This document shows, in pieces, positions 19,299 through 39,964 of a stretch of DNA of 64,000 nucleotides. Within the stretch, counting starts at the first letter, position 1. Each line of letters starts with the position of its first letter. This DNA comes from Haloprofundus halophilus. Lineage in GTDB: Archaea; Halobacteriota; Halobacteria; Halobacteriales; Haloferacaceae. Below the pieces are notes generated by a model. That model made no database searches, was not told the origin of the DNA, and saw only the letters and a list, made by a program, of their open reading frames with translations. The position numbers and the translations under genes were made by a program. Where the stretch lies: the NCBI RefSeq assembly GCF_003439925.1, contig NZ_QQRR01000001.1, forward strand, positions 930,001-994,000, read 5' to 3'.

Positions 19299-19523
19299 GA
19301 TTTACAACCGAAGACGGGACCACCCCCTCGCGTGCGCTGACTCGCGCCCGACGACCGGACGCGGTTGTGCGATTCGACGATCGTCGAAGCGGACAGTCGG
19401 AGGCGAGGGGACTCGTCGCTCGCGCCGCCGCGAACTCGCTCGAATCGCCTGCTCGCAAGCGCCGAAATCGACGCCGTGAGTACATGCCGAAGCTTCTTAC
19501 CCGCTGCGCGGCTATCTCGGTTG

Positions 19524-27620: not shown

Positions 27621-28700
27621 TTACAACAACGAGTCGATCTGGTCGTTGTCCCACATCCCGACCGGGTCGGGCTTCCCGTCTTCGGACTCCTGTTGGGCCT
27701 GTTTCGCGCGCTCCATGAACTGCTGGAGGCGCTCGGAGCGTTCGACGCCGCCGAGCAGGACGAGCGCCGCGAGTCGGCCGCTCTCCAGCGGGAAGTCGCC
27801 GCCGCGGACCTGCAGACTACCGGTCTCCTCTTCGACCCAACTCCGGGCGCGCTCGACGCCCTTCCGCGAGATGGTCTCGGCCTTACCCGCGACGACGACG
27901 AGCGCCGAGTCAGCCTCCGTCGCCTCGGGGAGACTCGTCCCCGTGAGAAGCGCCCGACGGACGGTGCTCATGATGGTGTTGATGTTCTCCTCGGCCTCCT
28001 CGCTCGCCTCGGAACTGGCGTAGCCGAGCGCCGCGACGCCACCCGAGCGGAGCGTGTTGATGATTTCGGAGGAGTCGACGACCGATTCGCCGACGCCCTC
28101 GGTCGCCTCGCCGGAGGCGAGGAGCAACCCGATGCGCTGGGCGATGGCCTGGTTGATGGCGTCGAACCCCTCCTCCATGCTCTCGCCGGAGGAGCGCCAC
28201 GCGTCGTTGTCGACGAGCAGCACCGAGTCGGCCTCGCGGGCGACGGTCTTCAGCGACCGGCCCGCGTTCACCTGGTACATCGACCCCTCGTCGCGGCCCG
28301 GCAGGATGCCGAGACCGTAGACGGGGACGTCGTAGACGCGCTTCAGTTCCTTCACGAGGACGGGCATGCCGCCGCTGCCGGTGCCGCCGCCGAGACCGGC
28401 GACGACGAAGATGGCTTCCGCCTCCGCGGTGATGCGGCCGTCGAGTTCGCCCATCACTTCGCGGGCGTCCGACTGCATCACTTCCGCGCCGAGTTCGTTG
28501 TCGCCGCCGACGCCGTGGCCCTTCACTCTGTCTTGCCCGACGAGCACCGTGTCGAGCGGGAGGGGTTGGAGGTCCGCTTTCGCGCTATTGACTGCGAGTG
28601 CGCCTCGGACTGCGCCGAAGCCCATCCGTGAATCGAACTCGGCCAGCGCCGTGGCGAGCTTGCCGCCGGCTTGGCCTACACCTATCAGGACGGTTTTCAT
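27621..28700 (-). CDS. cetZ: Tubulin-like cytoskeletal protein CetZ
   Basis: 359-residue tubulin/FtsZ-superfamily GTPase of the archaeal CetZ group, which controls cell shape and motility-related rod formation. Motifs: VLIGVGQAGGKLA near the N-terminus, the tubulin signature GGGTGSGGMP, NINTIMS in the T7-loop position, and a short C-terminal tail ending MWDNDQIDSLL. It is shorter than CetZ1, so it is probably a paralogue. GGAG sits immediately before ATG 28700. It is divergent from the pilus-like locus across 77 bp. Confidence 0.94.
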   Translation of the reverse strand: MKTVLIGVGQAGGKLATALAEFDSRMGFGAVRGALAVNSAKADLQPLPLDTVLVGQDRVKGHGVGGDNELGAEVMQSDAREVMGELDGRITAEAEAIFVVAGLGGGTGSGGMPVLVKELKRVYDVPVYGLGILPGRDEGSMYQVNAGRSLKTVAREADSVLLVDNDAWRSSGESMEEGFDAINQAIAQRIGLLLASGEATEGVGESVVDSSEIINTLRSGGVAALGYASSEASEEAEENINTIMSTVRRALLTGTSLPEATEADSALVVVAGKAETISRKGVERARSWVEEETGSLQVRGGDFPLESGRLAALVLLGGVERSERLQQFMERAKQAQQESEDGKPDPVGMWDNDQIDSLL

Positions 28701-28777: not shown

Positions 28778-29278
28778 ATGAGCGACGAAACCGTGCGCAG
28801 AAGCGGCGTTTCGGACCGCGACGACGACGAACTCCGCCTCGGCCGCCTCGAGAAGCGACTCGAGGCGGTCGAGCGGGCGGCGACGGGAACCGACGCCTCG
28901 GTCGCGGACCTCTCTTCGGCCGCCGAGTTGGACGCGCGACTCACCACCGTCGAAGAGCAGTTGTCCGAGTTCGACGACCGCCTCGCCGAACTCGACGCGG
29001 CGGTTCAGGCGCTCAGAGGCTACGTCGGCGGCGTCAGAGCGGTCAACCGCGCGGTCGAGCGTCGCGCGGACGCGGCCATCGCGGCCGTCGAATCGCTGGA
29101 GCGCGACCGACCGAACGGAGACGCCGTCGACGAGATTCTCGATGGAATCGAGGACGAGAACGAGAGCGCGTCGCCCGAACCGACCGGCGCTCCGGACTGC
29201 GACGCCGACGGTGCTGGTGACGAGACCGAGACCGGAGGCGCGAGCGGACTCGCCGCCCGCCTCCGAGAGACGTGGTGA
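28778..29278 (+). CDS. Coiled-coil protein, first gene of the pilus-like locus (DUF7310-type)
   Basis: 166-residue acidic cytosolic protein. Residues about 18-95 form a predicted coiled coil (LGRLEKRLEAVERA ... LDARLTTVEEQLSEFDDRLAELDAAVQAL) and the C-terminal half is a flexible acidic tail. No TM segment. Its TGA overlaps the GTG start of the next gene. A TATA-like CTTATGAG lies about 31 nt upstream. I recall DUF7310 as the family. A scaffolding role in the machine is inference. Confidence 0.85.
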   Translation: MSDETVRRSGVSDRDDDELRLGRLEKRLEAVERAATGTDASVADLSSAAELDARLTTVEEQLSEFDDRLAELDAAVQALRGYVGGVRAVNRAVERRADAAIAAVESLERDRPNGDAVDEILDGIEDENESASPEPTGAPDCDADGAGDETETGGASGLAARLRETW

Positions 29279-29754
29279 CGCGGTTCGTCGTGAGCGTCGC
29301 GCTCGCGGTCGCCCTCGTCGCCGCGTCGCTCCCCGCCGTCGAGAACGCCCGCGCGGACCGAACGACGAGCCACCTGGACGCCGAACTCACGCGCGTCGGC
29401 GACGCCGCTCGGGGTCTCATCGAGACGGAGGACGCCGTCGGCGACGCATCGCTGGCCGCCCGCCGCGTCGTCACTGTCTCGGTTCCCGAGCGGTCGCTGA
29501 CTGCCGCATCCGTCGATTACGTCGAACTGGACGGCGGAGACGGCCCGACCGGCGCTTCGTTCGGTTATCGGCTCGCGGGCCGCGAGGAGACGACCTACCA
29601 CCTCGCGGGCGTCCCCCTCTCGACGCCGTCCGGACCGGTGCGACTCTCGGACACGGGCACGCACCGACTCGCCCTCTCGCTCGTCGAGCGCGGTCGAGAA
29701 CCGGTCGTGACGCTACGGCGTCTCGAAGCCGACGACGCCGGAGAACCGAACTGA
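29275..29754 (+). CDS. N-terminally anchored exported protein (DUF7311-type)
   Basis: 159 residues starting at GTG 29275, which overlaps the previous stop (GTGA). An N-terminal hydrophobic segment (RFVVSVALAVALVAASLPAVE) is followed by an extracellular-looking domain with YHLAGVPLSTPSGPVRLSDTGTHRL. The hydrophobic head and pseudopilin-like length fit a minor component of a type IV pilus-like apparatus. No recognised catalytic motif. Confidence 0.85.
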   Translation: MTRFVVSVALAVALVAASLPAVENARADRTTSHLDAELTRVGDAARGLIETEDAVGDASLAARRVVTVSVPERSLTAASVDYVELDGGDGPTGASFGYRLAGREETTYHLAGVPLSTPSGPVRLSDTGTHRLALSLVERGREPVVTLRRLEADDAGEPN

Positions 29755-29787
29755 AGTTCAAGTACGGTGAGGCGGCCACCCCGTCGC
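29755..29787 (+). promoter_or_regulatory. Promoter/leader module A before the ATPase gene
   Basis: 33 nt between the DUF7311-type stop and ATG 29788. It contains a TATA-like TTCAAGTA and the block GAGGCGGCCA followed by CCCG. The equally long spacer before the DUF7283-type gene (33571-33603) matches it at 24 of 33 aligned positions without gaps. Confidence 0.65.
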
Positions 29788-31758
29788 ATGCGACTGCTCT
29801 CGCGGTTCGGCGTCACGGACGAACCGACGGACGAAGCGGAGGAGACGGACTGTCGCTGCGACCCGTCGTTCGTCGAACCGAGCGGTACGGGCGTGGGTCG
29901 GCGGGTCGAACTCGTCGTCGACGCCGACGACTGTCCCGGCGGCGGCGACCTGGTCGCCGACCCCGCCTGTCGAGCGACCGTCGTCGACGCACTCGCAGCG
30001 CGCGAGGCCGACGTCGTTCGCACCCGCTCCCGCGGCTACGAGCGGAGATACGACGGCGACGCGGCGGCGCTGCTGCTCGCCGCCGGGCGGTTCGTCGAGC
30101 GGGCGACCGTCCACGACCCGGCGCTCGCCGACCGGGCGCGGCGCGACCCGCTCGGTGCGGCGCGGCGGGCGACCGGGCGCGCCGGTCCGGTGAGGCGAAT
30201 CGCCGCCGAAACCGGTCTCTCGGAGGGGGCGGCCCGCGCATCGGGGTACGAAGACGCGCTCCGGCCGTTCGTCGGGCCGACGCTCATGCGCTCGCGCGTC
30301 GCCCTCCGACCGCCGCCGAACGCGACGCTCGTCGACCGCTGGTCGCTCGACGACGACACGACCGTCCGGCGGTACGACCGTGAAGGGGGTCGAGATTGGT
30401 ACCACCTCGACCCCGCGTTCACCGAACTCGACCGGTCGGCCGCCGCGATACTTGCCGAGGCGCGGAGTATGCTGGCGGACGGTGTCGGCGGTGCGAGCGA
30501 CCGGGCACCCGGCCGGGCGGTTCGTGCCGTCGTCGCCGAGCACCGAGACGGCGGAGGCGGCAGCGACGCCGGTGACAACAACGAGAGCGGCGACGGAACC
30601 GACGACCTCCCGGTGGAGCGGCTCTCGTCGCTCTTGGCGAAGCACACCCGCGGACACGGCGTCCTCGACGACCTGTTCTCCGACTCTCGGGTCTCGGACG
30701 TGTTCGTGACCGCGCCCGTCGAGTCGAACCCGGTCCGGGTCGTCGTCGACGGCGACCGCCTCGACACGAACGTTCGGCTGACCCGGTCGGGCGCGGCGGC
30801 GCTGGCCTCGCGGTTTCGGCGGACGAGCGGCCGACCGTTCTCGAAGGCGCACCCGACGCTGGACGCGGTAGTCGACGCCGACGGCGGCCGAATCCGCGTC
30901 GCCGGCGTCTCGAATCCGGCGAGCGACGGTCTCGCGTTCGCGTTCCGCCGGCACGACGACGCGCCGCTGACGCTCCCGGCGCTCGTCGCTAACGATACTC
31001 TCTCGGCCGACGCCGCCGCGCTGCTCTCGCTCTCGGTCGAACGCGGAGCCGCCGGTCTCGTCGCCGGCACCCGCGGGGCGGGGAAGACGACGCTGCTCGG
31101 AGCCCTGCTGTGGGAACTGCCGACGGCGACGCGAACGGTCGTCGTCGAGGACACGCCGGAGCTCCCGGTCGACGCGCTCCAGCGCCACGGCCGCGACATC
31201 CAGTCGCTCTACGTCGACGCGGGTGACGAAGCGACGCTCACGCCGACTGGCGGCGTCCGGACCGCACTCCGGCTCGGCGAGGGGGCGCTCGTCGTCGGCG
31301 AGGTGCGCGGCGAGGAGGCCGCCGCCCTGTACGAAGCGATGCGCGTCGGGGCGAGCGGGAGCGCCGTCCTCGGGACGATTCACGGCGACGGCGGCGCGGC
31401 GGTCAGAGAGCGGGTCGTCTCGGACCTCGGGGTCCCCGAATCCTCCTTTGCGGCGACTGACCTCGTCGTGACGCTCTCGCCGAGCGGCGGGCGGCACGTC
31501 GCTCGAATCGAGGAACTCCGCGTCACCGACGCGGGCGTCCGGTTCGTGACGCTGTTCGAGTACGCCGACGGCGCAGTTCGCTCGACGGGCGTCGTCGAGC
31601 GAGGCAACAGCGCGCTCGTGGACGCGCTCGCCGGACCGGACGAGCGGTACGCCGACGTTCGAGAGGCGCTCGGGACGCGTCGGCAGTCGCTCCGAACGCT
31701 CGCCGACGGTGACCGAACCCGGCCGACGGACGTCGTTGCGGCGTACGGGCATCGATGA
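29788..31758 (+). CDS. Type II/IV secretion system ATPase (TadA/VirB11-like)
   Basis: 656-residue motor ATPase of the pilus-like locus. The N-terminal 250 residues are divergent and begin with a Cys pair (CRCDPSF). The N-terminal nucleotide-binding subdomain (LSSLLAKHTRGHGVLDDLFSDSRVSDVFV) is followed by the Walker A GTRGAGKTT (427-435), Asp box VVEDTPEL and Walker B VVGEVRGEEAAALYEAM. The His box is GTIHGDGG. It would energise assembly or secretion from the cytosol. ATG 29788 is chosen; its stop overlaps the next ATG. Confidence 0.94.
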   Translation: MRLLSRFGVTDEPTDEAEETDCRCDPSFVEPSGTGVGRRVELVVDADDCPGGGDLVADPACRATVVDALAAREADVVRTRSRGYERRYDGDAAALLLAAGRFVERATVHDPALADRARRDPLGAARRATGRAGPVRRIAAETGLSEGAARASGYEDALRPFVGPTLMRSRVALRPPPNATLVDRWSLDDDTTVRRYDREGGRDWYHLDPAFTELDRSAAAILAEARSMLADGVGGASDRAPGRAVRAVVAEHRDGGGGSDAGDNNESGDGTDDLPVERLSSLLAKHTRGHGVLDDLFSDSRVSDVFVTAPVESNPVRVVVDGDRLDTNVRLTRSGAAALASRFRRTSGRPFSKAHPTLDAVVDADGGRIRVAGVSNPASDGLAFAFRRHDDAPLTLPALVANDTLSADAAALLSLSVERGAAGLVAGTRGAGKTTLLGALLWELPTATRTVVVEDTPELPVDALQRHGRDIQSLYVDAGDEATLTPTGGVRTALRLGEGALVVGEVRGEEAAALYEAMRVGASGSAVLGTIHGDGGAAVRERVVSDLGVPESSFAATDLVVTLSPSGGRHVARIEELRVTDAGVRFVTLFEYADGAVRSTGVVERGNSALVDALAGPDERYADVREALGTRRQSLRTLADGDRTRPTDVVAAYGHR

Positions 31759-33569
31759 GCGTCGAGAACCGCGTTTCGACGGCGGCCGACGTCGTCCAGA
31801 CGCTCGCCCGAGTGGCACCCGTCGACGTCGACGCCAGTCGGTCGCTCGACGACGCGCTGCGCTATCTCGACGCGCCGGTGTCGGGCGAGACGGTCGTCCG
31901 CGGCGGCTACGGAGCCGCCGTCGTCGTCGCGTTCTGTTCGTTCCCCGTCGTCGCACTCCTGGCGTCCCCGCTCGTCGCCGTCGCCGCCGCGTTCGGTGGC
32001 GGTCTCGCCGCCGCCCACGTCGTCCACCGTGCACCGGTGCTCCTCGCGCGTACGCGGCGGGCGGGAGCGCTCGGCGACGCCGCCGGCGTCGTCAATCGGG
32101 CCGCACTCCGGCTTCGGCTGGACCCGACCGCCGAGCGGGCGGCGGTGTTCGCGGCGCGGACCGGTCGAGGCCCGCTCGCGGCGAGCCTCGCGGCGCACGT
32201 CCGCCGCGCCCGCGGGACGCCGCAGTCGGGACTGGCGGCGTTCGGCGACGAGTGGGCCAACCGCCTCCCGGCGCTCGGACGGGCCACGACGTTGGTTCTC
32301 GCGAGCGCGGCGGCGACGCCGGGCGAACGCGAGCGCGGACTCGAACGTGCGCTCAACACCGTCCTCGACGGAACGCGCGACCGGCTCGCACGCTTCGCCG
32401 ACGACGTGCGCGCGCCGCTGTCCGGCCTGTATGCCTTCGGCGTCCTGCTCCCGTTGGCGCTCGTCGGCGTGCTCCCCGCGGCGTCGAGTGCCGGCGTTCC
32501 CGTCGGCACGTTGACGCTGGTCGTCGTTTACGACGTTTTTCTCCCGTTGGCACTTCTCTCTGCGGTTGCGTGGCTCGTCAGCCGTCGACCCGTCGCCTTC
32601 TCGCCGCCCCGAGTCGGCTTCGACCACCCCGATGTCGCGGTCGCCCGCCGGGGGTACCTCGTCGTCGCGGCGGTCGCACTCGCGGGAGTCGGCGTGAGCG
32701 TGGCAGTCGTCGGGCCGTGGAGCGCGCCGCTGGTCGCCGTCGGCGGCCTCGTCGGCGGATCGCTCGTCGTCCGCTACCGACCGGCCAGACGGGTTCACAC
32801 GCGCGTTCGACGCGTCGAATCGGGACTCGACGACGCGCTGTATCTCGTCGGTCGCCACGTCGTCGAAGGCGTCGCCGTCGAGCGTGCGCTGGAGCGAGTC
32901 GCCGACGAACTCGACGGCGCGACCGGCGAGATGCTGGCCGACGCGGTGACGACCCAGCGGGCGCTCCGCGTCGACGTCCGCGACGCCTTCCTCGGCGACG
33001 ACGGCGCGCTGGCCTCGGTACCGAGTCCGCGCGCGAGAAGCGCGGCCGAACTACTGGCGCTGGCGGCGACGGAAGGCGAACCGGCGGGGGCGGCGCTCGT
33101 CGCGACGGCGGAGCAGCTGAGTCGTCTCCGGCGTCTCGAACGCGAGGCCCGCCGCCAGTTGTCCGAGCTCACCGAGACGCTACAGAACACCGGCGCGCTG
33201 TTCGGCCCGCTCGTCGGCGGGGCGACGGTGGCGTTGGTCGAACGGTTGGGCGGTGTGTCGTCGTCGCCGTCGTCGGAGGCGTCGCGGGCGGCGTCCCCGC
33301 TCGGGACGGGAGCGATGGACGCCGCGAACACCGCCGCCGAATCGGCGTCCGTAGCAGGTTCGTCGCTGGGAGGACACCCGGAAACCGCGGCGTTCGGCCT
33401 CGCCGTCGGCGTGTACGTGCTTCTCTCGGCGGTGCTTCTGACCGCCCTGGCGACTGCTATCGAGCACGGACTGGACCGCGTGCTGCTCGGCTACCGAATC
33501 GGACTCGCGCTGCTCGCGGCGACGACGACGTACCTCGCGGCGTTCGTCGCCGCGAACCTCCTCGTGTGA
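31755..33569 (+). CDS. TadC/GspF-like platform membrane protein
   Basis: 604-residue polytopic protein of the type II secretion F family. Two cytosolic GspF-like domains (about 100-210 and 350-470, the second with DDALYLVGRHVVEGVAVERALE and LRRLEREARRQLSELTETLQNTGALFGPLVGG) are separated by paired TM helices, with further helices at both ends (about seven to nine in total). It is the inner-membrane partner of the ATPase. ATG overlaps the ATPase stop (ATGA). Confidence 0.92.
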   Translation: MSVENRVSTAADVVQTLARVAPVDVDASRSLDDALRYLDAPVSGETVVRGGYGAAVVVAFCSFPVVALLASPLVAVAAAFGGGLAAAHVVHRAPVLLARTRRAGALGDAAGVVNRAALRLRLDPTAERAAVFAARTGRGPLAASLAAHVRRARGTPQSGLAAFGDEWANRLPALGRATTLVLASAAATPGERERGLERALNTVLDGTRDRLARFADDVRAPLSGLYAFGVLLPLALVGVLPAASSAGVPVGTLTLVVVYDVFLPLALLSAVAWLVSRRPVAFSPPRVGFDHPDVAVARRGYLVVAAVALAGVGVSVAVVGPWSAPLVAVGGLVGGSLVVRYRPARRVHTRVRRVESGLDDALYLVGRHVVEGVAVERALERVADELDGATGEMLADAVTTQRALRVDVRDAFLGDDGALASVPSPRARSAAELLALAATEGEPAGAALVATAEQLSRLRRLEREARRQLSELTETLQNTGALFGPLVGGATVALVERLGGVSSSPSSEASRAASPLGTGAMDAANTAAESASVAGSSLGGHPETAAFGLAVGVYVLLSAVLLTALATAIEHGLDRVLLGYRIGLALLAATTTYLAAFVAANLLV

Positions 33570-33570
33570 G

Positions 33571-33603
33571 AGTTTAAACCGGGGGAGGCGGCCAACCCGC
33601 CCC
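33571..33603 (+). promoter_or_regulatory. Promoter/leader module B before the DUF7283-type gene
   Basis: 33-nt spacer with TATA box TTTAAAC about 29 nt before ATG 33604 and the block GAGGCGGCCA followed by CCCG. It aligns without gaps to module A at 29755-29787 (24 of 33 identical), so the second half of the locus probably has its own start of transcription. Confidence 0.7.
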
Positions 33604-34074
33604 ATGTTCGACGCACCTGTCGATACGTGGTACACGTGGCTCGGGCTCGCTCTCGCGTGCGTTGCGATGGTGGGGACCGCGCTGTCGTTCCCGACCGCGG
33701 CGGCGCCCGACGCGGCGGGCGTCGCCGACACCGTCGACGCCGTCGCCGCCAGCGAGTACGCGACGACGGCCGAACACCCGCTGGACGCGGCGGCGATTCG
33801 AGTCGGCCCGCACCGCGTGAGCCTCAGAAACGACGGCGGAACGACGCACGCGGCGTTCGCGTTCGGCCCCGTGACGCCCGTTCGGCCGGGTTCACGGCTC
33901 GAAACCGTGCTCTACGGCGGCGCGCCCGAGGAGGTTTTCGACAGTCGGCGGGCGTTCGTACAGGCGCTCGTGGAGGCACGGACCGCGGAGCCGACGTGGC
34001 GAACCGTCGACCGGACGCTCGTCGTGCGCGGAGTCGAGTGGGGGGAGAGAGATGTTACGCTCGTCGGCGCGTGA
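33604..34074 (+). CDS. Anchored exported protein of the pilus-like locus (DUF7283-type)
   Basis: 156 residues: a short N-terminus MFDAPVDTWYTW, one transmembrane helix (LGLALACVAMVGTALSF), then an exported domain with IRVGPHRVSLRNDGGTTHAAFAFGPVTPV and RRAFVQAL. It resembles a pseudopilin by topology but has no obvious prepilin peptidase cleavage motif. The last 23 bp overlap the next gene in another frame. Confidence 0.85.
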   Translation: MFDAPVDTWYTWLGLALACVAMVGTALSFPTAAAPDAAGVADTVDAVAASEYATTAEHPLDAAAIRVGPHRVSLRNDGGTTHAAFAFGPVTPVRPGSRLETVLYGGAPEEVFDSRRAFVQALVEARTAEPTWRTVDRTLVVRGVEWGERDVTLVGA

Positions 34075-34486
34075 CGGAAACGGGGCGGGTCGTGCGCAGA
34101 CGGACCCGACGACGGCGCTCGTCGCCGTCTTCGCTGTCGTCGTCTCGCTCTCGCTGTACGCCGTCGTCTTCGACGGGGCGAGACCGTCGGAGGCGCGTGC
34201 GCTCGCCGACCCGACGCTCGAACGCGTCACGAGCGAACTGACCGAAGACGCCGTCGTCGACCCGGCAGCGCTCGACGGGACCCGCGGCGCCGCGCCGGAC
34301 GGCTACTCGCTGAACGTCTCGCTCGCCGTCGGCGAACGCCGGTGGACCGTCGGACCGCCGGTCCCGACGGAGTGGGCGCGGGCGGCCCGCCGGCCCGGTT
34401 TCGACGAAGCGGCCCGTCGACCGAGCGTTCGTCTCCGGCCGGGAGTCGTCCGGCCGGGTCGCCTCCGGGTGGCGGTGTGGCGATGA
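34052..34486 (+). CDS. Pilin-like anchored protein (DUF7285-type)
   Basis: 144 residues. After GRAQTDPTTA comes a single hydrophobic helix (LVAVFAVVVSLSLYAVVF), an arrangement like class III signal peptides where cleavage precedes the hydrophobic stretch. The remainder is an exported domain (RVTSELTEDAVVDPAALDG). It overlaps the previous gene by 23 bp, and its TGA overlaps the next ATG (ATGA). Confidence 0.83.
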   Translation: MLRSSARDGNGAGRAQTDPTTALVAVFAVVVSLSLYAVVFDGARPSEARALADPTLERVTSELTEDAVVDPAALDGTRGAAPDGYSLNVSLAVGERRWTVGPPVPTEWARAARRPGFDEAARRPSVRLRPGVVRPGRLRVAVWR

Positions 34487-35349
34487 CGAGCAGCGTCCTC
34501 GACGCGGCGCTCTGTCTGCTCCTCGTCAGCGCCGCGGCGGTGACGCTCGTGGACGTGCCGTCGAGTCACGGGTCCTCCGACGCCGGCGCGTCACGGACGG
34601 TGAAGACGCTCTCGACGAGCACCGCCGAAGTCGAATACAGCCTCGCGACCGGCGCGCGCCGTGCGGACGACCCCGAACGATTTCCCGCGACCGACGGCCC
34701 AGCGTTCGACCGGCACGCCCACGGCACGCTCGCGCAGTTACTGGCCGAGTCGACGCTGGCGACGCCGGCGGTCGGCGGTGAGCGCCCGACGCACGCGGGT
34801 ACCGACTTCCGCCGGCGCGTTCGCGCGGCCGTCGGTCGGTCGCTGCCGCCGCGGACGCACGTCGTCGCGGAGTGGCGACCGCACCCCGGTTCGAGTATCG
34901 CCGGGACGGCGACTGTCGGCGAGAGACCCCCGCCGTCGGCCGACGTTCACGTCGCGGTGCTCTCGGTGCCGACGGGGACGGAGGTCGACGACGACGCGGC
35001 CGCCCGGCGCGCGATGGACGACGGGTTCGCCGGCGTCGCAACGGTCGTGAGCGAGCGCCTCGTCAGAACGTGGTTCCCGCCGAGACGGACTCGTCTGGCG
35101 CTCGACGACGACTACCCTACGTCGGCGCTCGTCAGGTATCGCTACCGACGGACGGCCGAACTCGCGGGGGCGACGCTGCCGCCGACGCTGAACCGCTCGA
35201 CGGTTCCGGCGGCGAACGCGCGACTCGTCTCGGCGCTGGAGCCGCGCGTCGAAGCGGACCTTCGGGAGCGGTTCGACTCGCCGGCGGCGGCCGCCGTGTC
35301 GCTCTCTGGCGGGGCGGTCCGCATCACCGTTCAGCGGTGGTCGGCGTGA
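34483..35349 (+). CDS. Anchored exported protein (DUF7284-type)
   Basis: 288 residues starting at ATG 34483, which overlaps the preceding stop. The N-terminus is itself the membrane anchor/signal (VLDAALCLLLVSAAAVTLVDVP). The rest is extracellular-looking, with STSTAEVEYS, HGTLAQLLAESTLA and VSERLVRTWFPPRRTRLAL. The upstream extension of this frame to 34342 overlaps the previous gene and is not part of the protein. The following GTG overlaps its stop. Confidence 0.84.
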   Translation: MTSSVLDAALCLLLVSAAAVTLVDVPSSHGSSDAGASRTVKTLSTSTAEVEYSLATGARRADDPERFPATDGPAFDRHAHGTLAQLLAESTLATPAVGGERPTHAGTDFRRRVRAAVGRSLPPRTHVVAEWRPHPGSSIAGTATVGERPPPSADVHVAVLSVPTGTEVDDDAAARRAMDDGFAGVATVVSERLVRTWFPPRRTRLALDDDYPTSALVRYRYRRTAELAGATLPPTLNRSTVPAANARLVSALEPRVEADLRERFDSPAAAAVSLSGGAVRITVQRWSA

Positions 35350-38300
35350 GCGACGGCGCGGGTGGCGGCCCGAACGCCGCCGACTTTCTCGACGGCGAAC
35401 GCGGGCGCGTCCCGTTCGCGCTCGTCGGCGTGTTGCTGCTCGTGACGAGTTCGACGTTCGCCGCGACGCTCGGCGGCCCCGCCGCGACGCGCGACGACGA
35501 CGTCGAGACGGCGATGGAACGGGTCGACGCGGAGTCGGTCACCGCGCTCCGCGTCGCCGCCGACGAGGCCGCCGTCGACGCGGCGGCGACCCCCGTGACG
35601 GCCCGGGCGGAGACGCCGGCCGGGAAGGTGCTCAACGAGTCGTCGCCGTTCGTCGACTCGCTGCGCGTTCGCCTCTACCTCGCGGCGCGGGAGCGTTTCG
35701 AGCGGACGAGCTACCGCCGAAACGACGTGAGAGCTGCCGTGTCGATTCCGGCGGTTCGGAACATCTCGGACCTCCGGCGGGCCAAGCGCGCGGTCACCGT
35801 CGAGCGCGTCGACGAGGGGTCGGCCATGCGCGTCACGCTCGAGAACGTGACGCGAACGGCGACGCGCGACGGCCGAGTCGTCGCCGCGCGGACCGACTCG
35901 CTGACCGTGACCGTGGCCAATCCGGTACTGCTCGCACACGACAGAACGGCAGCGTTCGAGACCCGACTCGGGCGTCCGGCGCTCGCCGGGCCGGGACTGG
36001 ACCGTCGACTGACCGCGCGGCTGTATCCGGTCGCGTGGGCGCGAGGATACGCGCAGAACCGCGGCGCGCCCATCGAGAACGTCGTCTCGAACCGTCACGT
36101 CGGGCTGTCGACGAACACCGGCGTCGTCGCCGTGCAGCGGGCGTCGTTCGGTCGGAGCGACCCGGCGGCCCGACGCGGCGTCGAGCGGGCGACGATGCGC
36201 GTCGGCGCGGCCGACCTGCTGGAGCCGGCTCCGTCCGAAGCCGGCCGCATCGCGGAGGCGGTGCTCGCTCCGCCAAACGACCCGACTGCGCCGGAGGCAA
36301 ACGCTCCAGTGCCGACGGCGGCGTCCGGAGAGGAACGGTCGCTCACCGTCGGCGTCAACCGGACCGCCGACGCCGCGTTCGTCTCGTTTCTCGACGGCGA
36401 ACCGACGGCGGACGGCGAACCGACGGCGGACGGCGAACCGACGGTCGACGGCGAACCGAACCAGCGGTCGTTGACCGAGACGCTGGCGGCCGCGTACCGC
36501 GTCGACGCACACCGCTCGACGCGGGTCGTACAGACGCGCGAGGGGACGCCGAAACGCCCCGCCGCGCCCGGTCGAAACTGGAGTCGGGTGGGTGTCGAGA
36601 CGCGGACTCGTCTCTCGGTGTCCGACGGCGACGGTCCGGTGCCCGAGACGACCGGTACGCGCACCGAGACGGCGACTCGACGTGTCGTCGAGCGTCACGT
36701 TCGCACCGCAACGTGGCGACGGGGCAACGGGACTCGGACGACGCGGGCGACGTGGACCGACCGCTACCGCGTCGGCATCGCGCTCGGCGTCGAACGCCGG
36801 TCGCTCGACGGCGTTCCCACCCGGCCGGTTACCCCCGAGTTCGAACGCGGCGGCGCGCTCGACGGGCCGAACCTCGACGACGTGCCCGAGCGCGCGTGGT
36901 CGAAAACGGTCGAACGCCGCGGCGGCGTCGACGCCGTGTCTCGCCGCGCTGTCGAGAACGCTCGGTCGAGCGGAGCGACGGAGACGAGAACAGCGACGCT
37001 CACCGGTCAGCGTCCCGAGCGACTCGAGCCGTGGGTGTACGACGACCTGTCGGCGTTCAGAGAGCGCCTTCGAGGCGTGAGCCTGGAACTCGACGCGACG
37101 CGCGTCGCAACCGGCGAGGCGAACCCACCCGCGGAACTGGCCGCCGAACTCCGGTCCCGTCGGTCGGAACTGCTCGACGCTCCCGAGACGTACGACGGCG
37201 CGGCCGACCGAGCGCGCGTCGCCGCGCGGGCGGCGTATCTCGAACGCGTGTTACTCAACCTCGACGCGCGGGCCGACCGGACCGCAGCGCGAAACGACCG
37301 ACTGGGCGAGACGCTGGCCGGTCGCGGAGCGACGGCGTCGTCGTCGTCCGAACTCGGTCGGCTCGTCGAAACCGCCGAGCGGTCGGTAGTCGCCGAACCG
37401 CGGACGTTCGGCGACGAGGCACCGGCGAGCGGCGTCGCACTCTACCCCGACGGGTCGCCGGCGTACCTCACGCTGGCTACCGTCGAACGAGCGCACGCGC
37501 CGACGATTCCGGCGAACGCGAGCTATCGGCCGTTGACCGCGCGGAACACGAATCTCGTGACGGCACCGTACGGCGACGTCGCCGACAGCGTCGTCGACGG
37601 AGCGATAGACCGGTCGAAGCGGGTGAGTCTCCGAACGGGCGGGCGAGTGCTCGTGGTGGCGAACCGGACCGCCGCCGCGACCGGAAACGCGACGCTCGAC
37701 GAGCGGCGGCGTCGGCTCGGAACCGAAGTCGCCGCCGGCGTCGACGTGACCGAGGGCGCAGCGCGGACGACTCTTAGAGAGGAGACGTCGCTCACGGCGG
37801 CGGAGCGCCGTCTCGCCGTCGACTGGGGGTTCGGCCGGTGGGACGGTCACGGGCGGCGAGCGCTCGCTGCCGTCAACGGCTCCGCGGCGACGGCCATCGC
37901 CGAGCGAGTCGGAGCGCGGCGAGGCTGGCACGACCGACGGACCGACCGTCTCGAACTCCGGCTCCGGTCGTCGATGCTCGACGCCGCCCGCAGCGACGCC
38001 GCGCAGGTACGGCGGCGACCCACGGAGCGCACGTCGGCGGCGACGCAGTGGCTCGCTCGCCGCGCGAAGAAGGCGCTCGAAGCCGAACTGCGGGACGGGA
38101 GCGAGCGAGCCAAAGACCGCCTCGAAGAGCGGGTCGGCGAGCGACTCGAAGATACGAAGTGGGCCGACGAGGCGCTCGTCGGCGTACCATCCGGACTGCC
38201 GGTCGCGCCCGTACCGGGCTACTGGTACGCGACCGTCAACGTCTGGACCGTCGAGGTTCGCGGCGAGTACGCGCAGTTCGTCGTCACCGCGCGCCGCGGC

Positions 38301-38540
38301 CCGGCCGGGTCGAGCGACCTCCGGTACGTCCGCGACGGCGGCGCGGTGACGCTCGACGTCGACGACGACGGGGACGCCGAGCGCTTGGGTCGGAGCGAGC
38401 GCATCTCGTTCGAGGCGAAGACGACCGTCGTCGTGGCCGTTCCCCCGACACCGCCGGGCGTCGGCGACGTCGACGGTGACGCCGACGAGCGCTCCGGCGG
38501 GTGGCCGGAGCCCGGCTGTACGCCGGAACGGCGGTGTTGA
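35346..38540 (+). CDS. Giant anchored surface protein of the pilus-like locus (DUF7286-type)
   Basis: 1064 residues from GTG 35346, which overlaps the previous stop (GTGA). Near the N-terminus GERGRVPFALVGVLLLV resembles the haloarchaeal prepilin start, where Arg-Gly precedes a hydrophobic stretch. A very long exported region rich in Arg, Thr and Ala follows, with a DGEPTA repeat (about 350-372), several predicted helices, and a C-terminal part containing VAPVPGYWYATVNVWTVEVRGEY. It is probably the largest external subunit; the last gene of the unit. No enzyme motif. Confidence 0.87.
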   Translation: MSDGAGGGPNAADFLDGERGRVPFALVGVLLLVTSSTFAATLGGPAATRDDDVETAMERVDAESVTALRVAADEAAVDAAATPVTARAETPAGKVLNESSPFVDSLRVRLYLAARERFERTSYRRNDVRAAVSIPAVRNISDLRRAKRAVTVERVDEGSAMRVTLENVTRTATRDGRVVAARTDSLTVTVANPVLLAHDRTAAFETRLGRPALAGPGLDRRLTARLYPVAWARGYAQNRGAPIENVVSNRHVGLSTNTGVVAVQRASFGRSDPAARRGVERATMRVGAADLLEPAPSEAGRIAEAVLAPPNDPTAPEANAPVPTAASGEERSLTVGVNRTADAAFVSFLDGEPTADGEPTADGEPTVDGEPNQRSLTETLAAAYRVDAHRSTRVVQTREGTPKRPAAPGRNWSRVGVETRTRLSVSDGDGPVPETTGTRTETATRRVVERHVRTATWRRGNGTRTTRATWTDRYRVGIALGVERRSLDGVPTRPVTPEFERGGALDGPNLDDVPERAWSKTVERRGGVDAVSRRAVENARSSGATETRTATLTGQRPERLEPWVYDDLSAFRERLRGVSLELDATRVATGEANPPAELAAELRSRRSELLDAPETYDGAADRARVAARAAYLERVLLNLDARADRTAARNDRLGETLAGRGATASSSSELGRLVETAERSVVAEPRTFGDEAPASGVALYPDGSPAYLTLATVERAHAPTIPANASYRPLTARNTNLVTAPYGDVADSVVDGAIDRSKRVSLRTGGRVLVVANRTAAATGNATLDERRRRLGTEVAAGVDVTEGAARTTLREETSLTAAERRLAVDWGFGRWDGHGRRALAAVNGSAATAIAERVGARRGWHDRRTDRLELRLRSSMLDAARSDAAQVRRRPTERTSAATQWLARRAKKALEAELRDGSERAKDRLEERVGERLEDTKWADEALVGVPSGLPVAPVPGYWYATVNVWTVEVRGEYAQFVVTARRGPAGSSDLRYVRDGGAVTLDVDDDGDAERLGRSERISFEAKTTVVVAVPPTPPGVGDVDGDADERSGGWPEPGCTPERRC
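36393..36461. repeat. 18-bp tandem repeat in the giant DUF7286-type gene
   Basis: Three full units of 18 bp (36393-36410, 36411-36428, 36429-36446) plus a partial one encode DGEPTA repeats. In frame, with near-perfect identity. Confidence 0.92.
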
Positions 38541-38606: not shown

Positions 38607-39041
38607 ATGCTCTACGACGCTGCGGAGAACCCCGGGTCGTTGACGCCGGACGAGTTGCGTGCCGCCTACGACTCGCAGTTGGCTGCCGTCGTCGACGCGG
38701 TCGGCGTCGAAGCCGTCGCCGCCGAGTCGGGCGTCGACCACGACCGAGTGGCCGCCCTGACGGACGGCGACTCGCCCGACCTCACGCTCGAAGAGGCCGC
38801 CGGTATCCTCGCCGCGGGCGACGGTTACCCCGACCGGGAGGCTATCGTGCTCGAACTGCGAGACCACCTCCTGATGGGGATGACCACGGGCGTCCTCGAC
38901 GTGGACACTATCGCTTCGGACATCGACGCCGACCTCACCGGCCAGGAGGTCCAGCAGGCGCTCGAAGGTCGCATCCCGTTCTCGCTCGACGAACTCTCGG
39001 CCGTGCACCAGTTCATCGCCGAGCGGAACGACCGCCGATGA
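38607..39041 (+). CDS. DUF5791-type protein
   Basis: 144-residue soluble acidic protein: LTPDELRAAYDSQLAAVVDAVGVEAVAAESGV, then DREAIVLELRDHLLMGMTTGVLDVDTIA and a C-terminal helical part. The central region resembles a helix-turn-helix (VDHDRVAALTDGDSPDLTLEEAAGIL). I recall the haloarchaeal family as DUF5791. Its TGA overlaps the ATG of the epimerase-like gene, so the two are coupled. Confidence 0.85.
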   Translation: MLYDAAENPGSLTPDELRAAYDSQLAAVVDAVGVEAVAAESGVDHDRVAALTDGDSPDLTLEEAAGILAAGDGYPDREAIVLELRDHLLMGMTTGVLDVDTIASDIDADLTGQEVQQALEGRIPFSLDELSAVHQFIAERNDRR

Positions 39042-39964
39042 GCGCCGAGAGCAGCGACGGAGCGAGCAAGCGCGTCGTCGTCCTCGGCTGTGGCTACGTC
39101 GGCCTCGAACTCGGTCGTCAGTTGACCGCGACGGGCCACGACGTCGTCGGCGTCAGGCGTTCCGACGCCGGGCTGGAAGCCATCGAATCGGCGGGGTTCG
39201 AGGCGGTGCGTGCGGACGTGACCGACGCGTCGTCGCTCGCCTCGGTGCCGGACGCCGACTGGCTCGTCTTCGCGGCGAGTTCCGGCGGGCGCGACGCGGA
39301 GGCGGCGCAGCGAGTGTTCGTCGACGGACAGCGGACGGCGCTCTCGGCGTTCTTCGGGCGCGACGACCCGCCCGAACGCTACGTGTACACGTCGAGCACC
39401 GGCGTCTACGGCGACCACGACGGCGACTGGGTCGACGAGGGGACCGAGATTCGGCCGACGACGGAGAAGACGCGAGTGCTCGCGGAAGCCGAACGAGTCG
39501 CCCGCGCGACGCCGCGCGAGTACGGGGTCGAGGGCACCGTCGCCCGCTTCGCGGGGCTGTACGGTCCCGACCGCTACCGACTCGAGCGGTATCTGGAGGG
39601 ACCGGTGACGGAAGGGTATCTGAACATGGTCCACCGCGACGACGCCGCCGGGGCCATCGCGTACCTGCTGGAGACCGGCCAGGGACGCGACGAGGTGGTG
39701 TTGGTCGTCGACGACGAACCGGCCGAGAAGTGGGCGTTCGCCGACTGGCTGGCCGACGAGTGCGGCGTCGACTGGCCGCCGAAACGGACGAAACAGGAGC
39801 GTCTCGACGCGGGCGACCTCTCCGAGGCGGCGCGGCGACGGATTCTCACGAGCAAGCGCTGTTCGAACGCGCGACTCCGCGAACTCGGGTACGAACTCGA
39901 GTTCCCCGACTACCGTTCGGGGTACGCGGCCGCGGTCGAACGGTATCGCGAGCGCACGCGCTGA
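39038..39964 (+). CDS. Extended SDR / NAD-dependent epimerase-like protein
   Basis: 308 residues. The nucleotide loop is VVLGCGYVGLELGRQL. YVYTSSTGVYGDHDG carries the SDR Ser and Tyr, but the Tyr-x3-Lys is displaced (typical of atypical YeeZ-like SDRs). FAGLYGPDRYRLER and NMVHRDDAAGAIAYLLE are family features. Likely a sugar-nucleotide or unknown-substrate reductase. ATG overlaps the DUF5791-type stop (ATGA). Confidence 0.9.
   Translation: MSAESSDGASKRVVVLGCGYVGLELGRQLTATGHDVVGVRRSDAGLEAIESAGFEAVRADVTDASSLASVPDADWLVFAASSGGRDAEAAQRVFVDGQRTALSAFFGRDDPPERYVYTSSTGVYGDHDGDWVDEGTEIRPTTEKTRVLAEAERVARATPREYGVEGTVARFAGLYGPDRYRLERYLEGPVTEGYLNMVHRDDAAGAIAYLLETGQGRDEVVLVVDDEPAEKWAFADWLADECGVDWPPKRTKQERLDAGDLSEAARRRILTSKRCSNARLRELGYELEFPDYRSGYAAAVERYRERTR

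Follow-up and report, generated by a model that had tools for sequence, protein, structure and literature searches.

Gene content and layout of the locus

Eight open reading frames (ORFs), all on the + strand and arranged head to tail, were found at positions 28778-38540 of the window, the 64,000-nucleotide stretch of Haloprofundus halophilus DNA that was analyzed. A first-pass annotation of the sequence had placed an eight-gene, type IV pilus-like locus here, and all of its ORFs were recovered. In the 5' to 3' direction they encode DUF7310 (28778..29278, 166 aa), DUF7311 (29272..29754, 160 aa), a T2SSE ATPase (29788..31758, 656 aa), a TadC-like platform (31755..33569, 604 aa), DUF7283 (33604..34074, 156 aa), DUF7285 (34052..34486, 144 aa), DUF7284 (34483..35349, 288 aa), and DUF7286 (35346..38540, 1064 aa). 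Consecutive genes are separated by -7, +33, -4, +34, -23, -4, and -4 bp, i.e., by five overlaps and two short gaps, so that the earlier count of six out of seven overlapping or closely abutting junctions was slightly generous. Third codon positions held most of the substitutions in all eight genes when these were compared with the locus of a congener (L037), and GC content by codon position was coding-like across the eight genes. These results indicated that the eight ORFs are real genes.

Convincing Pfam E-values were obtained for seven of the eight proteins, and the six DUF families named beforehand were confirmed (DUF7310, E 2.1e-29; DUF7311, E 2.2e-43; DUF7283, E 1.7e-56; DUF7285, E 2.1e-32; DUF7284, E 1.6e-92; DUF7286, 1166.7 bits, E reported as 0). 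The locus is flanked upstream by a divergently oriented, tubulin-like CetZ gene (27621..28700, - strand; CetZ_C, E 1.6e-67), which was designated CetZ2 on the basis of synteny; the genome contains one further CetZ gene. Downstream, it is followed on the + strand by a DUF5791 gene (38607..39041; E 8.3e-52), likely arCOG04674 of the literature, by a gene for an NAD-dependent epimerase-type protein (39038..39964), likely arCOG03095 and assigned to its family by inspection and from the literature, and then by a DHH-type gene.

The ATPase, a PilB2-type T2SSE/VirB11-like protein (T2SSE, E 9e-18), carries the Walker A and B motifs on which its initial identification was based, and Walker A (GTRGAGKTT), Asp box, Walker B, and His box were all conserved in orthologs. 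Its N-terminal four-cysteine motif (C22/C24/C49/C61) was retained in 48-49 of 50 aligned sequences, and 2oap, CpaF, and FlaI were identified as relatives in the PDB. The adjacently encoded platform is a PilC2/TadC-like, multi-transmembrane (multi-TM) protein with about 6-7 hydrophobic segments. Its T2SSF match remained below the Pfam cut-off (E 2.4e-4) and was confined to the C-terminal half, while T2SSF was matched at E<=0.01 in 5 out of 20 orthologs. The earlier description of this protein as a two-domain TadC-like platform was thus weakly supported for the C-terminal half; the Pfam search listed no T2SSF domain in the N-terminal part, and the term "two-domain" rests on length and hydropathy. 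Five T2SSE matches were present in the whole genome. By inspection, one of these was the PilB2 locus; the others were an archaellum-type locus, a locus in which pilins were not evident, a PilB4-like locus containing DUF7288/7261/7266/7289 genes, and a PIN-domain ATPase.

Hydropathy analysis agreed with the initial reading of one cytosolic coiled-coil protein and five single-TM exported proteins: DUF7310 lacks a TM segment, and DUF7311, DUF7283, DUF7285, DUF7284, and DUF7286 each have one hydrophobic N-terminal segment and are predicted to be exported. In an alignment of orthologs, two of these proteins showed conserved, class III-like N-termini, namely DUF7285 (R[GA]QTEPLAALVAV; RAQTDPTTALVAV in the window) and DUF7286 (R[GA]RVPFALVGVLLLV). 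The N-termini of DUF7284 (M/V-TSTVLDV..LCLLL), DUF7283 (MFDAP.DAWY.WLGL), and DUF7311 (MIRVVLAV) were not obviously of this class. DUF7285 orthologs gave weak matches to DUF7287 (8 of 32) and DUF7266 (3 of 32; best E 0.0089), both of which are families present in other pilin-type loci, suggesting that DUF7285 is weakly related to pilin families. Profile comparison revealed a weak local similarity between DUF7285 and DUF7284, and nothing between DUF7286 and DUF7284. Net charge of the exported proteins was also considered, but their apparent charge neutrality shrank when a proper control was used (means of -0.04 to +0.01 versus -0.067) and was not used as evidence.

The AlphaFold2 model of DUF7284 (pLDDT 90.7) comprised a TM helix (residues 3-23), a disordered linker, and a separate alpha/beta domain; this TM helix is short, unlike the continuous long helix of a pilin. 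For DUF7286, a multi-domain model was obtained (pLDDT 80.9), with a low-confidence N-terminal region and a break after the TM helix. Neither model matched a solved fold in the PDB at E<0.001, a PDB sequence search with either protein yielded no relative, and the DUF7286 model showed no match at E<0.001 to a viral fold library. This large, TM-anchored protein likewise gave no match to S-layer families in Pfam or to S-layer folds. Among orthologs of DUF7284, two estimated length groups were seen (about 140-210 and 260-350 aa); their starts were assigned automatically, and truncation by start choice is possible.

Neither a prepilin peptidase nor an archaellum gene was detected within 28778-38540, in line with the first-pass annotation, and a Pfam search of the eight genes gave no recognizable major pilin or Pilin_N match. 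Two Pilin_N genes occur elsewhere in the genome, whose only A24 prepilin peptidase match lies outside the window (C1:1849333). Since the genome as a whole has a single such peptidase, absence of a local one is normal. The accompanying claim that no ordinary pilin is encoded here requires qualification, as DUF7285 and DUF7286 have class III-like N-termini and DUF7285 appears to be pilin-related. The further conclusion, that absence of an ordinary pilin points to a non-pilus machine, did not hold in view of these N-termini and of the use of pilins encoded in trans by haloarchaeal PilB-PilC pairs, as is known for PilB3 (PMC4858521).

Conservation, co-retention, and inheritance

Sixty loci from a genome panel were compared, together with 80 named loci. 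In most of them, drawn from many genera, the eight genes lay between cetZ on one side and DUF5791, epimerase, and DHH, in that order, on the other; Haloferax larsenii and H. prahovense are examples, and all eight genes were found in order in H. gibbonsii. This recurrence is far beyond chance. CetZ adjoined most orthologous loci and was absent from many. A single-protein search of genome contigs with DUF7284 returned nothing, and an alignment of DUF7286 used as query succeeded.

Among 194 Halobacteria genomes, DUF7286 was detected in 151 and DUF7311 in 147. Both were present in 147 genomes and neither in 43; DUF7286 occurred on its own in four genomes, two of which carry the deletion scars described below, and DUF7311 in none. 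The co-occurrence of the small exported proteins with the motor genes, assumed in the first-pass annotation, was thereby borne out. In 140 comparable genomes, DUF7311 and DUF7286 were located within 15 kb (<=15 kb) of each other in 123 cases and were not within 15 kb in 17, and in these 17 both were kept. In eight of the 17 split pairs, both genes shared a contig, at a distance of 0.17-2 Mb; the others were on different contigs, some of which may reflect assembly breaks. In the split loci that were fetched, the last gene before the break was DUF7311, the platform, or DUF7283, and CetZ remained with the DUF7310-DUF7311 side in several and with DUF7285-7286 in one genome (G045). Retention of the parts together after their separation is a stronger argument for one machine than operon order, and suggests that all eight parts form one functional unit.

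Partial and additional copies were also observed. Blocks of DUF7283-DUF7286 without a nearby ATPase and without the first four genes were present at four loci (L048, L071, L081, and L095), and divergent second copies of the system within a genome at two (L061 and L067). The C-terminal part of DUF7286 was the most widespread element, reaching other families of the phylum. In three loci of one such family (L185, L186, and L188), DUF7285-DUF7284-DUF7286 occurred in the same order, with no ATPase within the fetched region. In L185, the only annotated locus of the three, DUF7287/DUF7288 pilin-type genes are located next door and a small exported protein is encoded directly downstream.

It has been proposed that the system inserted next to cetZ2 as a cassette that is mobile or was recently acquired (PMC9856176). 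Its presence or absence beside cetZ2 varies between orders (PMC9856176), and some genomes contain paralogous copies, both of which are consistent with mobility. However, in a tree of DUF7286 from the 80 named loci, most genera formed one clade each, with genera requiring 25 changes versus a minimum of 24, and DUF7286 distances tracked those of the neighboring DHH gene (r = 0.88, null maximum 0.12), a comparison that is weak by itself because the two genes are linked. Moreover, two loci carry scars of in-place deletion beside CetZ. In one, a single ORF (L084:12839-13777) fuses what is left of DUF7310 (E 4.7e-5) with the C-terminal quarter of DUF7286 (E 2.6e-75); in the other (L083:12384-13735), an intact DUF7310 is directly followed by the end of DUF7286. 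Both belong to genomes of one genus and may possibly derive from one event, and they contradict recent mobile acquisition at least for this lineage. Together, these observations suggest old vertical inheritance with loss in some lineages, and recent insertion of a mobile cassette is regarded as very unlikely.

Promoter elements and a structured RNA family

Two promoter-like elements of the same type were found within the locus on the + strand. One, with TTCAAGTA ... GGCGGCCA, precedes the ATPase gene (29757..29787; ATG at 29788); the other, consisting of TTTAAA and a GGCGGCCA box, precedes DUF7283 (33573..33603) and was conserved in orthologous loci. Upstream of DUF7283, 32 of 55 loci contained a strict TATA-like hexamer between -36 and -18, compared with 0-10% for the other junctions, and 36 of 55 contained a GRCCA box, which in most of them was situated some 18 to 10 nt ahead of the start; as starts were assigned automatically, these counts are lower bounds. 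The locus therefore probably comprises at least two transcription units, with the DUF7283 element dividing the operon into blocks.

The combined pattern, TTYAARTNNGNNNVSGVRRCCA, has a fixed spacing, lies 8-10 nt before the start codon, and represents a promoter class of Halobacteria. It was found at about 150 sites in 44 genomes versus one for a reversed-pattern control, and at about 40 sites versus one in an earlier set of 12 genomes. About half of the sites with a well-spaced start codon head real genes. Recurrent targets included a secreted protein (L306 group), a TctA permease, a NucS_N/Zn-ribbon protein, a Cas4-like protein, a DUF7382 protein, and the PilB2 locus. A role of the box as marker of a pilus-specific regulon was discarded, because it also precedes unrelated genes and many copies of the RNA element described below.

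Most of the remaining TTYAARTNNGNNNVSGVRRCCA sites marked the beginning of a ~76-92 nt element, in which RTG-NNN-stop is followed by a helix and an H-type pseudoknot and which ends near CCTG-NNN-GCC. Copies were located in the genome itself (L214, L215, L221, L224, and L226), and dozens were present in other Halobacteria (L290-L395). In an alignment of 32 sequences (A4), the two helices were 84% paired and 14 of 16 pairs had changed on both sides; 85 cells showed changes on both sides, versus 30 in shuffles. Sliding the partners by one to three columns reduced pairing to 33-50%, a control that is somewhat favorable because the structure was read from the same sequences, and with which swapped-partner tests agreed. 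A covariance model recovered three copies outside its training set (L221, L224, and L389; E 1.5e-5 to 1.9e-8), all of which had been supplied as motif sites. The copy in the window (19332-19457, within 19302-19457 on the + strand), situated between a TFIIB-type gene and an Nre gene, was weaker (E 0.023), with promoter box and GTG-CGC-TGA start in place. A search of 20 of these loci against Rfam gave no match at E 0.1, and this pseudoknotted RNA family is apparently undescribed. Start codon, one sense codon, and stop were kept at most copies, with TGA, TAA, and TAG all observed, and a few copies had no start codon. The two-codon frame, which is partly an effect of selecting sites for an early stop, may be a motif at the sequence level and not a frame that is translated.

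Proposed machine and relation to known systems

The combined data are best read as a haloarchaeal type IV filament-family machine of the PilB2/PilC2 type (subclade 4F), which is considered likely to be anchored in the membrane beside CetZ2 and to act in coordination with it. In such a machine, the A24 prepilin peptidase encoded in trans would cleave DUF7285 and DUF7286, and ATP hydrolysis by the ATPase would turn or push the platform, thereby pulling these pilin-like subunits out of the membrane to build a filament or short pseudopilus. DUF7286 would be a large exoprotein at its tip or base, DUF7311, DUF7283, and DUF7284 membrane-anchored assembly factors, and DUF7310 a factor linking the ATPase with regulation or with CetZ2; should a bulk pilin be required, it would come from an unlinked gene. 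By analogy with related systems, adhesion, motility, or secretion may be proposed for the locus, and attachment to surfaces, or a function in the envelope related to cell shape, appears most likely.

This interpretation is based on the family assignments, the ATPase motifs with their four cysteines, the conserved gene order, and the co-occurrence of the parts. It is further consistent with the class III-like N-termini, the weak kinship of DUF7285 to pilins, the peptidase in trans, the two Pilin_N genes elsewhere, and the DUF7285-7284-7286 trio beside DUF7287/DUF7288 genes in another family. Against a type IV filament stand the lack of a recognizable major pilin in the locus and the DUF7284 and DUF7286 models, which are non-pilin-like (the latter at low confidence) and match no solved fold; against the link of PilB2/PilC2 to CetZ2 stands the absence of CetZ from many loci. 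The same absence of a major pilin, together with models that resemble TM-anchored domains rather than continuous pilin helices, would fit a short pseudopilus-type or secretion/envelope-remodeling machine without a long filament, whose exported proteins would assemble, between membrane and S-layer, into a static or piston-like complex for moving or positioning cargo such as DUF7286. A weak tendency toward lower acidity was also seen in the exported proteins relative to sister pilin families. However, some haloarchaeal systems routinely rely on pilins encoded in trans (PMC4858521) and the related trio is located beside pilin-type genes, and such a machine is considered possible but rather improbable. 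A more specific form, in which the system is not a pilus and a PilB2-PilC2 motor guided by CetZ2 moves TM-anchored exoproteins in a compact pseudopilus-like envelope machine, is regarded as doubtful; if true, it would represent a cytoskeleton-coupled extracellular machine of archaea. A role in DNA uptake or transfer might be read from the promoter box shared with Cas4-like, NucS_N/Zn-ribbon, and HerA-like genes, a promoter type with recurrent targets across genera. The box also precedes the TctA permease, secreted proteins, and many RNA copies; it appears to represent a general class of promoters, not a dedicated regulon, and DNA handling is regarded as highly improbable.

The preferred interpretation, a PilB2/PilC2 filament-family machine, can be compared with the other systems of this type. 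The ATPase resembles that of the archaellum (ArlI/ArlJ), with a match to the archaellum model NF058587 (E 5.5e-25) that is far under the cut-off of the model. In contrast to the archaellum, no archaellins or other archaellum genes are present at the locus, and a separate archaellum-type locus, with an archaellin-like gene and another ATPase-platform pair identified by inspection, is located on contig C2. The machine is thus distinct from the archaellum, as the first-pass annotation had stated, and is also separate from the other pilus-type loci of this genome. The Haloferax PilB1-C1, PilB3-C3, and PilB4 systems share the homologous logic of ATPase and platform, and pilins in trans are known for PilB3-C3; other exported families are used, such as DUF7261/7266/7288/7289 in the PilB4-like locus of this genome. 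Adhesion phenotypes have been reported for PilB1 and PilB3 (PMC6491452), and none was found in the literature for PilB2.

Subclade 4F has been described as combining an ATPase whose N-terminus is Cys-rich, a unique intracellular coiled-coil protein of Halobacteria, a large S-layer-like protein, and pilin-like minor components, with the major pilin mostly encoded elsewhere (Makarova, 2016; PMC4858521). The four-Cys N-terminus of the ATPase and the coiled coil of DUF7310, a candidate arCOG07564 protein, fit this subclade, whereas no S-layer domain was detected in DUF7286. Membership of subclade 4F is based on these features and on synteny, as is the CetZ2 designation on synteny. Since a later paper places PilB2 of H. 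volcanii in subclade 4C (PMC6491452), the clade label is less certain than the identity of the locus. H. volcanii locus tags for the operon were not found in open papers, nor were the DUF names in a literature search; HVO_0739 and HVO_0741, considered as operon genes, turned out to be something else.

The first-pass annotation had implied an undescribed system. Judged by gene order, flanks, coiled-coil protein, and Cys-rich ATPase, which match the descriptions in PMC4858521 and PMC9856176, the locus is the cetZ2-linked pilB2/C2 regulon already described from genomes. This type IV pili regulon was found beside cetZ2 in Halobacteria (Brown and Duggin, 2023; PMC9856176). As a widespread pilus-type system of Halobacteria, and the haloarchaeal one for which a neighboring tubulin-family gene has been reported, it offers a testable link from cytoskeleton to cell surface. 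With the published regulon, the locus of Haloprofundus halophilus shares the divergent CetZ, the ATPase, the platform, and further pilus-type components; the flanks arCOG04674 and arCOG03095, matched by description and position, fit DUF5791 and the epimerase-type gene. No essential difference was seen between the two; here, the genes were mapped to Pfam DUF families and the idea of recent acquisition was countered.
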